64,000 bases of DNA from Hydrogenophaga sp. (GTDB taxonomy: Bacteria; Pseudomonadota; Gammaproteobacteria; Burkholderiales; Burkholderiaceae_C): NCBI RefSeq assembly GCF_030373225.1, contig NZ_JAUCZG010000005.1, positions 107,856-171,855 on the forward strand, read 5' to 3'. The stretch's first letter is position 1; each line of letters begins with the position of its first letter. Positions 18,528 to 45,884 of this stretch are shown piece by piece. The notes under the pieces are model-generated. The model searched no databases. It worked only from the letters and a program-made list of their open reading frames with translations, and was not told the origin of the DNA. Position numbers and translations under genes: made by a program.

Positions 18528-18836
18528 GTGGTGTGCGCCCCGGCGTGGTTGCTCGACTTCGCAGCAACGATAACGGAAAGCCCCCGCCCGCAAGTCGCGC
18601 TCCCCGACCACTCAGCCCGCGCCACAGACCGTTGGAACCGAGGCACCACCGTTCGGGCTGCGCCACCGCCGTTCAGGCTGAGCCGCCTCCGTTCGGGCTG
18701 CGCCACCGCCGTTCGGGCTGAGCCTGTCGAAGCCCTCGCCGGCACCTGGGTGAACCCTTCGACCAGCACAGGGTGAACGGGTGGCGAGGCTGGGACAAAA
18801 GCCAAACCGAGTGGGTGAGATCAATAGAATGCCCGG
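18528..18836. other. 309-bp gene-free region with REP-family repeats
   Basis: This divergent spacer between the DUF2157 gene and glnS should hold both promoters. Its centre (18651-18780) is filled by REP-type repeats. The track ORFs here, such as 18320..18805, translate the repeats (TGSARTAVAQPERRR) and are not real genes. The 50 bp before glnS has no obvious strong Shine-Dalgarno sequence. Confidence 0.7.
18651..18780. repeat. REP-type repeat cluster with exact 20-bp period
   Basis: GTTCNGGCTG occurs at 18651, 18671, 18691 and 18711, an exact 20-bp period. A 40-bp higher-order unit alternates CGCCACCGCC with AGCC-type spacers. The last unit reads GTTCGGGCTGAGCCTGTCGA and is followed by AGCC. 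An inverted relative (CCCTTCGACCAGCACAGGGTGAAC) lies at about 18755-18778. The same family occurs at 44301-44436. Confidence 0.85.
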
Positions 18837-42900: not shown

Positions 42901-44298
42901 ATGACTGCCATGCCCGAACACGCCCCTGCTCGACACAGCCCTTGGGCGCCCGCCCTCGCCGAGCTCGAACGCGGCCTGCTGCAGCGCGACGTGGCCGCAC
43001 GCGCCCTGTTGCTGGCCGCGCTGGCCGGTGAACACGTGCTGCTGCTCGGCCCGCCGGGCACGGCCAAGAGCGAGCTGGCGCGCCGGCTGCAGCGGCTGCT
43101 GCCCGGCGCGCACTACTTCGAGCGCCTGCTCACGCGCTTCACCGTGCCCGAGGAACTGTTCGGCCCGCTCTCGCTGCGCGCCCTCGAAGACGACCGCTAC
43201 GAGCGTCTGACCGAAGGCTACCTGCCCGGCGCCGAAGTGGCTTTTCTCGACGAGGTGTTCAAGGCCAACTCGGCCATCCTCAACACCTTGCTCGGTCTGC
43301 TGCACGAGCGCCAGTTCGACAACGGCAGCCAGCGCCTGCCGGTGCCGCTGGTGTGCCTGGTGGGTGCCAGCAACGAACAGCCGCAGGACGACAGCCTGCT
43401 CGCCTTTCACGACCGCTTCCTGCTGCGCGTGCCGGTGCAGCCCGTCGACGACGCCCACTTTGCGGCGCTGCTGCAAACCAGCGTGACAGCCCCCGCCGCC
43501 GCACCGCCCGAGGCGCTGATCGATCGCGCGCGGCTTGATGCACTGCGCGCCCAGGCGCCCCGCACCGTGGTCGGCGAGACCGTGCTGGCGCTGCTGCTGC
43601 AGGCGCGCCAGCACGCCCGGCAAACCGGGCAGACCGTGTCCGACCGGCGCTGGCGCCAGTGGGTGGCCTTGCTGCAACTGCAGGCCGCCAGCCGGGGCGC
43701 CTGCGAGGTGGACGGGTGGGACCTGTGGTTGCTCCCCTTTGTGCTCGCCAGCGACACGTCGCACGTGACGGGCTGGACCGACTTCTTCTTGCACCGTGTC
43801 GCGCTCACCGGACCGCTGCCCCTGGACGGCCTGGAGCGCGCGGTGACGGCGTTCGAGCAGCAGCTCGACATCGAGCGGCGAGCGCCGGCCGACGCGCAGG
43901 ACGACAGCGCGGGCAAGGTCGCGCTGGCCCGGTCGATCGCCGGACCCGGTGCCGGTGAGAGCGAGATGGTGCGCATCACCAGCGAGCGCGCGCAGCGGCG
44001 CTACAGCCCGGTGCACATCGAGGCCCGCGTGGCGCAGACCGACGAATTGCTCGCGCGCCTGGTCGAACTTCACAACGAACTGACCACCACCGCGGCGAGC
44101 GTGTTGGGCGCCGCACGCGCACACGACTGGCTGCCTGCGTCGTGGCTGGCACAGATCGAGGCGGTGCACCTGGGCCGCTGCGCCGGTGTCGCGTCGCTGC
44201 TGACACAGCTCCAGACCACGCGCAACGGCTTTGCATGCCTGCCGGTGGATGCAACGAAGGTGGATCGCCCTGCGCCGGTGTCGTGGGAAACCCCGTGA
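42901..44298 (+). CDS. MoxR-family AAA+ ATPase (RavA-like)
   Basis: A 465-residue AAA+ ATPase. Walker A is LLLGPPGTAKSELAR near residue 46, Walker B VAFLDEVFKANSAILNTLL near 110, sensor 1 in LVGASNEQPQ, and Arg finger region near DRFLLRV. Its C-terminal extension of about 200 residues is like that of RavA. In E. coli RavA works with the VWA protein ViaA on respiratory chain and envelope stress functions; the same pairing here is inferred from the following VWA gene. The TGA stop overlaps a GTG start as GTGA, and the REP cluster begins right after. ATG 42901 follows the thiolase stop by 15 bp. Confidence 0.92.
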   Translation: MTAMPEHAPARHSPWAPALAELERGLLQRDVAARALLLAALAGEHVLLLGPPGTAKSELARRLQRLLPGAHYFERLLTRFTVPEELFGPLSLRALEDDRYERLTEGYLPGAEVAFLDEVFKANSAILNTLLGLLHERQFDNGSQRLPVPLVCLVGASNEQPQDDSLLAFHDRFLLRVPVQPVDDAHFAALLQTSVTAPAAAPPEALIDRARLDALRAQAPRTVVGETVLALLLQARQHARQTGQTVSDRRWRQWVALLQLQAASRGACEVDGWDLWLLPFVLASDTSHVTGWTDFFLHRVALTGPLPLDGLERAVTAFEQQLDIERRAPADAQDDSAGKVALARSIAGPGAGESEMVRITSERAQRRYSPVHIEARVAQTDELLARLVELHNELTTTAASVLGAARAHDWLPASWLAQIEAVHLGRCAGVASLLTQLQTTRNGFACLPVDATKVDRPAPVSWETP

Positions 44299-45884
44299 GG
44301 GCTTCGACAGGCTCAGCCCGAACGGGGGTGGGCTCAGCCCGGGCGGTTGGATCGGTCGATCGCACGACAACAAACCCCGTTCAACCTGAGCCTGTCGAAG
44401 GGCCTCATTCCGATCACCCTGAGCTTGTCGAAGGGCCCGGCCAGCCGGCCACGCCCTACCACCACCTCGACGCCCTGCCCCGCGAGCTTTGGCGATGGGC
44501 GGTGGTGTGCAGCAGTGGCCAGCCTGCCGAGCGCCTGCCCCACCTGACGCGCTGGATGGAAGCCCTCCTGGCCGGCGCCCTGCCCGACGCCGCCCACGAC
44601 TTTGGCGACGCCGCCGCCACGCAGGCGCTGCGCCCGCTGCTGGTCGAGCTTGAACTGCTGACCCTCACGCAAGGCAGCGCACCCCTCACGCGGCAGGTGA
44701 TGCAGAGCCTGCTGTGGCACCTCGACAGCCTCATCGACCGCCCGGGCGGCGAGCCGCGCGAGCAGGCCATCGCGCGCATGCGCAGCGACTTCCGCGACAG
44801 CTGGGACCTGCAGCGCCAGGGCTGGGACGAGGTGCTCTCGCTGCTGCAGTCGCTGGGCGATCTGGCGCACCTGCGCTGGGACGATCTGCAGGGTCACCTG
44901 AACCGGCGCGAATGGGGTGAAGCGCGTCGCATCGGCGAACTGCTGCAGCGCCTGCCACAGCTCGCACGCTTCATCGACGGTGTGGGCCGGCGTGAGCAGG
45001 CGCCCCACCCACCTGCGCTCACCACCCGACCCGATGCCCGCGAACCGATGCCCGCGGTGCGCCATCCGGCCGATGAAGAAGAACGGCGGCCCGAACCCAC
45101 CGCCGTGGATGGTGTGCGCCGCTCGCGCACCCTCGCCCGCATGACCGGCGGCGAAAGCCTCCACCTCACCCACCCGGTGCTGCGCCGCCTGTGGCGCGCG
45201 CGTTTTGCCGAAGCACAGCTGCTCACCTACGACGACCGGGCCCGCGAGCAGTCGCAGCGCCCGCTGCCGCAACCCGAACCCCAGCCCCGGCGACGCAGCC
45301 CCGGCCATGCTGGACGCGGCCCGCTCATCGTGTGCCTGGACACCTCGGGATCGATGCGTGGCGCGCCGGAAAACGTGGCCAAGGCCTGCGTGCTGCAGGC
45401 CCTGCGCAGCGCGCATGCGCTGCGCAGGGCCTGCCGGCTGCTGGCCTTTGGCGGCCCCGACGAGCTGCTGGAGCGCGACCTGGCGCTGGACGCCGAGGGC
45501 CTGTCGCACCTGCTCGATCTCATGGGCCAGAGTTTCGATGGCGGCACCGACGTGCAGACGCCCATGGAGCGTGCCATCGAACTGGTGCAGACCACCGACT
45601 GGCACGACGCCGACCTGCTGATCGTGAGCGATGGCGAGTTCGGCGTGACGCACCACACCCTGGCGCAGCTGCGCGATGCCCGGCAACGGCTGGCGCTGCG
45701 GGTGCACGGCATCCTGATCGGCGACCGGGAGACCGTCGGTCTGGCCGAGGTGTGCGACCAGCTGCACTGGGTGCGCGAATGGCGCCGCTACGGCAGCGGA
45801 ACCACGGTGGTCGCCGACGGTTTTTCGCCGGTGCACAGCCGCAGCCTCACCGCGATGTACTTCCCCAACGCGATCCGTCGCTGA
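44295..45884 (+). CDS. VWA domain protein (ViaA-like) with REP-encoded N-terminus
   Basis: A von Willebrand factor A protein partnering the upstream MoxR ATPase. The MIDAS metal site is complete: LIVCLDTSGSMRGA near residue 355, SFDGGTDVQTP near 420, and LLIVSDGEF near 445. The conserved N-terminal helical part begins about HHLDALPRELWRWAVVCSSG. The start is uncertain. GTG 44295 overlaps the MoxR stop and gives 529 residues, but its first 55 residues (VRASTGSARTGVGSARAV..PEPVEGPHSDHPELVEGP) are direct translation of the REP repeats and have no VWA character. Later GTG codons inside the repeats or after them are alternatives. REP insertion has probably replaced the original start. Confidence 0.87.
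   Translation: MRASTGSARTGVGSARAVGSVDRTTTNPVQPEPVEGPHSDHPELVEGPGQPATPYHHLDALPRELWRWAVVCSSGQPAERLPHLTRWMEALLAGALPDAAHDFGDAAATQALRPLLVELELLTLTQGSAPLTRQVMQSLLWHLDSLIDRPGGEPREQAIARMRSDFRDSWDLQRQGWDEVLSLLQSLGDLAHLRWDDLQGHLNRREWGEARRIGELLQRLPQLARFIDGVGRREQAPHPPALTTRPDAREPMPAVRHPADEEERRPEPTAVDGVRRSRTLARMTGGESLHLTHPVLRRLWRARFAEAQLLTYDDRAREQSQRPLPQPEPQPRRRSPGHAGRGPLIVCLDTSGSMRGAPENVAKACVLQALRSAHALRRACRLLAFGGPDELLERDLALDAEGLSHLLDLMGQSFDGGTDVQTPMERAIELVQTTDWHDADLLIVSDGEFGVTHHTLAQLRDARQRLALRVHGILIGDRETVGLAEVCDQLHWVREWRRYGSGTTVVADGFSPVHSRSLTAMYFPNAIRR
44301..44436. repeat. REP cluster at the MoxR/VWA gene junction
   Basis: An inverted copy GCTTCGACAGGCTCAGCCCGAACG lies at 44301-44324. Direct relatives follow: CGTTCAACCTGAGCCTGTCGAAG at 44378-44400 and CCTGAGCTTGTCGAAGGG at about 44418-44435. 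A short GGCTCAGCCCGGGCGG half-copy is at 44331. Together they form a BIME-like unit of the same family as 18651-18780. It is read through in frame by the VWA coding sequence. Confidence 0.88.

Follow-up and report, generated by a model that had tools for sequence, protein, structure and literature searches.

The closest described systems are the intragenic REP sequences of the GTAG and CGTC superfamilies, which were catalogued by Di Nocera et al. in 2013, with N-terminal cases included (PMC3733652), and the Rickettsia palindromic elements (RPEs). Many of the N-terminal REP cases were regarded as possibly non-coding, since translation may begin downstream of the repeats. Clusters of repeats in Thauera and R. 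conorii account for 43-82 residues, and the RPE-decorated N-termini in R. conorii were reported as expressed (PMC3733652). Here we describe a REP cluster at the junction of two genes in Hydrogenophaga sp. that very probably encodes the N-terminus of the downstream protein. A literature search found no paper in which this repeat or its peptides are quoted as strings.

The window (the whole stretch of 64,000 nucleotides that was analysed) contains a MoxR-family AAA+ ATPase gene (positions 42901-44298, plus strand; bpMoxR, PF20030) that is followed by the gene for a VWA-domain protein (44295-45884, plus strand), which is predicted to have 529 amino acids including the REP-derived tail. This arrangement resembles the RavA-ViaA type operons, in which a AAA+ MoxR gene is also followed by the gene for a VWA partner. 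However, the MoxR protein scored 227.7 bits with the RavA equivalog profile (NCBIfam cut-off of 681) and the VWA protein scored 132.1 bits with the ViaA profile (cut-off of 500), and because these scores are far under the equivalog cut-offs the two proteins are merely distant relatives of RavA and ViaA. The VWA protein is likely to be a chaperone-partner protein. Its GTG codon (44295-44297) overlaps the MoxR stop codon TGA (44296-44298), and the resulting 4-nucleotide overlap (GTGA, 44295-44298, plus strand) makes translational coupling from MoxR to VWA plausible. The open VWA frame begins well upstream (it is listed from a GTG at 44142) and extends to the TGA at 45882-45884, which bears out the preliminary description of a frame that runs from the overlapping GTG through the entire REP cluster.

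The junction contains four REP units, three of them full and one partial, all of which lie within the open VWA frame. The forward unit (44300-44325, plus strand) is read as ASTGSARTG and is followed by a partial copy (44331-44346, plus strand; read as GSARA), a 21-nucleotide (7-codon) tandem duplicate of 44310-44325 that is missing from the aligned relatives. Next is a locus-specific spacer with the GGATCGGTCGA core (44347-44376, plus strand), which is common to the window and the clade B relatives. An inverted unit (44377-44404, minus strand), read as PEPVEG, pairs with 44302-44327, and a second inverted unit, read as PELVEG, is located 33 nucleotides (11 codons) further (44410-44437, minus strand) and occurs only in this genome among those compared. 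Exact CTTCGACARGCTCAG units are present at 44302 (plus), 44386 (minus) and 44419 (minus), and the inverted arms 44302-44327 and 44375-44400 are 88% complementary. Within the window, six REP matches with two or fewer mismatches were observed versus 0.27 expected, and another REP copy with a degenerate partner is found at 18718-18771. The conserved protein begins at 44454-44501 (PYHHLDALPRELWRWA, plus strand), a segment that has no in-frame ATG, GTG or TTG, and P54 is its first invariant residue. The stretch that precedes it thus has 53 residues rather than the 55 that had been ascribed to REP translation; the repeats are in frame as described, but REP units make up only about 60% of the nucleotides of this stretch and the remainder is spacer.

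The 15-base core CTTCGACARGCTCAG has 108 exact copies in the 4.02-Mb genome while the reversed control pattern has none, which shows that the repeats are real. They have the properties of REPs in that they are short, dispersed in many copies, and frequently arranged as inverted pairs, with many pairs of opposite orientation about 33-48 nucleotides apart throughout the genome. A transposase gene of the RAYT type flanked by REPs is typical of GTAG REPs, and CGTC REPs are without one. No REP-flanked RAYT gene was found in this genome, as the sole Y1_Tnp gene (47.3 bits; L060, G000:C1:107274-107603) has no REP core in its 3.3-kb locus. The present repeats are similar to the GTAG and CGTC REPs in being short palindromes, often in dimers or clusters, that occur in frame within genes, including DNA-repair genes, and in some cases at N-termini (PMC3733652), but the CTTCGACARGCTCAG core is assigned to neither superfamily, the units of which carry a GTAG or CGTC tag, left unpaired, at one end. 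The likeness to RPEs consists of in-frame insertion into protein-coding genes, with N-terminal examples (PMC3733652); the repeat and the host group are different, and about three quarters of the copies surveyed here are located outside predicted genes.

That survey included 60 regions (L061-L120) with 102 of the 108 exact copies and used a simple codon-model gene prediction. Approximately 25 of the 102 copies were inside predicted genes, excluding the three in the VWA gene, which the predictor placed outside. Besides RecG, the proteins with in-frame REP peptides included a DnaE-like polymerase (L066), a molybdopterin oxidoreductase (L072), an acetyl-CoA synthetase (L087), Tex (L108) and an ArsA-type ATPase (L069), and a CrtC/lipocalin-type protein (L071:1494-2687, plus strand) has a predicted N-terminus that begins in a REP pair (VDPSTSSGRT...RAEPVEA). 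The RecG gene (L093:1564-3837, minus strand) carries, between the sequences for its DEAD and Helicase_C domains, an in-frame REP-derived insert of about 60 residues. Because several relatives lack this insert, in-frame acceptance of REPs occurs in this genome without ambiguity of the start site; two relatives have other insertions at the same place, and one (L151) has a shorter REP-derived version. The inverted units within genes were read as PEPVEG/AEPVEA in 13 cases and as LSLSK in two, both within 15 residues of the predicted start, and the forward units were read as STGSARTG/STSSGRT in six cases, as LRQAQ in four and as FDRLR in none; these counts are non-independent, since many units are paired. 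The REP units of the VWA gene use both of the commonest phases.

The ordinary start codons in the VWA frame are the GTGs at 44283 (inside the MoxR gene), 44295 and 44328, and the next one is the GTG at 44502; there is no in-frame ATG, GTG or TTG between 44328 and 44502. The GTG at 44502 corresponds to residue 70, and starting there would remove P54-A69, a segment that includes LPRELWRW, the predicted helix 54-60, and residues P54, L58, L65 and W66, which are invariant in the alignment with 31 relatives. A start downstream of the repeats was rejected on these grounds, since the first conserved helix would be lost by initiation at 44502, and such a start is not credible unless a non-canonical codon is used. 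Near-cognate codons are present after the repeats (ACG 44451 and CTG 44475), and the sequence would permit initiation at either of them. The gene finder with the simple codon model placed the VWA start at 44502 because the REP codons score poorly. Among the four candidate starts, the GTG at 44295 ranks first in Shine-Dalgarno pairing, although this pairing is modest (-7.4 versus a background mean of -4.0). The GTG at 44283, 13 nucleotides before the MoxR stop, was also rejected as the start, since this codon is not kept among the carriers of the repeats (it is CTG in L002, L006 and L008) while the NTG at position -1 is always kept. In five other relatives (L011, L012, L049, L056 and L057), the VWA protein apparently starts from an ATG 13 nucleotides before the MoxR stop, with a 14-nucleotide overlap. 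The start codons, together with the frame kept in relatives, uphold the proposal that the REP repeats encode the VWA N-terminus.

A genus-wide search of 67 genomes identified the VWA gene in 37, and 32 junctions were compared; according to its named relatives, the genus is Hydrogenophaga or one close to it. Thirteen genomes, including that of the window, carry a recognisable or decayed cassette (L001, L002, L004, L006-L009, L046-L048, L050, L052 and L054), and all 13 have an in-frame GTG or ATG as the -1 codon; no repeat-bearing relative was found in which the start lies beyond the repeats, the observation that would have spoken against a REP-encoded terminus. The same 4-nucleotide NTGA overlap is present in three genomes that lack REPs (L051, L053 and L055), and the alignment of these homologues extends over both flanks of the insert, as expected for a REP- or RPE-decorated protein. 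In the REP-less close relatives L003 and L005, a free-standing ATG is preceded by a purine-rich ribosome-binding sequence and lies 19 nucleotides past the MoxR stop. L010, which has no cassette, starts with a free-standing GTG, and in the most distant genus members compared (L013-L016, L020, L058 and L059) the start is likewise free-standing and located past the end of the MoxR gene. The distance between the MoxR stop and the RxLWRW motif ranges from 50 to 185 nucleotides, L002 and L008 retain only short remnants of the cassette, and the cassette of L006 (Hydrogenophaga taeniospiralis) derives from REPs but has decayed in part.

This comparison largely settles the question of whether the mobile repeats created a new extension or displaced the ancestral start. 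Because 13 REP-bearing and three REP-less genomes share the NTGA overlap, the start appears to have been kept and the cassette to have become an extension behind it. An insertion that displaced a free-standing ancestral start and itself made the GTGA overlap would agree with the free-standing starts of the most distant genus members, which indicate that the overlap is the derived state, and the short N-termini of L051 (NIGAAAP) and L053 (NTGAAAP) may be eroded remnants of STGSAP. However, the overlapping NTG is the codon ahead of the repeat core, and L051, L053 and L055 carry the -1 overlap without recognisable REP sequence. Displacement was for this reason rejected as the leading reading, and we consider it unlikely.

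Of the 109 REP units of this genome that were examined, only one is followed by the GGATCGGTCGA spacer, which is nevertheless present at the junction in clade B (for example, L046). Because this spacer is shared, the cassettes of clades A and B are orthologous and derive from one old insertion, and a recent insertion confined to this genome was rejected. Among the genomes compared, only the 21-nucleotide duplication and the additional unit of 33 nucleotides are confined to this one. A single clade of carriers was also rejected (p-AU 3e-77 with the MoxR+VWA tree), and the presence and absence of the cassette on this tree, in which support for the order of the main clades is weak, requires a minimum of four changes. 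Losses must be assumed because the carriers do not form one clade and because carrier clades enclose the cassette-less L003/L005, L010 and L049. The changes, at least four in number, are best read as one gain followed by several losses.

Length differences among the cassettes are 21, 33, 24, 18, 27 and 57 nucleotides, in addition to the large loss in L002, and all are multiples of three; for at least seven such changes the probability by chance is about 3^-7 if every length is equally likely. In the relatives with free-standing starts, the lengths from the stop to RxLWRW are 0 or 1 modulo 3. The 13 linkers contain no stop codon in the VWA frame, versus 13 in the remaining forward frames (2 in one and 11 in the other), so that the repeat is in frame and stop-free in a conserved gene, as in REP- or RPE-decorated proteins. 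Differences at codon positions 1, 2 and 3 numbered 44, 43 and 74 in six roughly independent sister pairs summed by hand (chi-square about 11.6, 2 df, p about 0.003). In most pairs the linker dN is well above the body dN, which indicates weak constraint on the sequence of the tail, and dN/dS is below 1 in most linker pairs. The hairpin in the start region gave z scores of -5.3 (window), -3.4, -2.4 and -1.7 for intact copies and -0.5, +0.2 and +0.7 for decayed copies, in which the frame persists. Because the hairpin is gone from the decayed copies while the frame is kept, selection appears to have retained not the hairpin but an uninterrupted reading frame that leads from the overlapping start codon into the protein. 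The cassette must stay in frame because there is no other ordinary start before the conserved first helix.

Taken together, our data indicate, with a probability of approximately 0.85, that one ancestral in-frame insertion gave the VWA protein a tolerated and translated N-terminal tail. The anatomy of the junction, the homology of the cassettes, the retention of frame, the conserved overlap and the missing ordinary alternative start are read directly from the sequences. A REP cassette consisting of a forward unit, a spacer and an inverted unit would have been inserted once, in an ancestor of both carrier clades, immediately downstream of the VWA start codon, which overlaps the stop codon of MoxR. 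The phase of insertion would have been stop-free, and the VWA protein would thus have gained a flexible N-terminal tail. We infer that VWA translation starts from the overlap, where ribosomes that finish MoxR would re-initiate at NTGA and read through the cassette into VWA, and that the tail is neutral, being tolerated rather than required, so that its length and sequence may drift while the frame must hold. The tail would later have been shortened in some lineages and lost in others in which a separate start is used, and in this genome the cassette would have been enlarged by the 7-codon duplication and the 11-codon extra REP unit.

The 53-residue tail is predicted to be floppy and without a fold. 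In the AlphaFold2 model, which is of moderate quality overall (mean pLDDT of 58.5), residues 1-51 have a pLDDT below 50 and the first helix comprises residues 54-60. The tail looks dispensable because three lineages nested among the carriers lack the cassette and use other starts. A function for the tail, which could serve in the MoxR-VWA complex as a linker or for docking, or could form an mRNA hairpin that sets the ratio of both proteins, would be in keeping with its long in-frame persistence in 13 genomes and with the dN/dS values, but is doubtful in view of the widely varying length, the short remnants in L002 and L008, the nested relatives without any tail, the low pLDDT and the unconserved hairpin. 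It is improbable that the REP-derived tail has been recruited for a role, for example with the hairpin and the stop-start overlap setting the MoxR:VWA ratio or as a flexible linker in the complex; if it has, a selfish repeat would have been turned into a working protein terminus that has outlived its own palindrome. That the repeats form an untranslated or regulatory RNA hairpin between the genes, with VWA translation beginning after it, is very unlikely despite the strong folding of intact copies (the RNA of 44270-44460 has a z of -3.9), the preference of the gene finder for 44502, and the argument that most REPs at the 5' ends of ORFs may be non-coding in P. putida, C. koseri and S. maltophilia (PMC3733652), as the stretch from the repeats to the conserved helix offers no ordinary start codon, and the frame and the in-frame NTG are kept even in genomes that have lost the hairpin.

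In terms of the translated, tolerated tail, the VWA protein may be regarded as a clear example of a known phenomenon, that of REP- or RPE-decorated proteins, and the evidence for coding repeats appears to be unusually good, judging from the sequences compared. The coding status of N-terminal REPs has been hard to decide, as translation may start downstream, and many such cases were suspected to be non-coding (PMC3733652). Here the comparison excludes an ordinary downstream start and largely decides the matter, because the ordinary in-frame starts lie only before or within the repeats and the frame is kept in 13 genomes despite decay of the palindrome. About one quarter of the surveyed REP copies in this genome are probably translated, for the most part in a small number of phases, which yield peptides that are polar and flexible. 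For studies of translational coupling at a stop-start overlap with a hairpin behind it, the MoxR-VWA junction offers natural variants, which include a full tail, a short remnant, a decayed tail, and no tail with a separate start.
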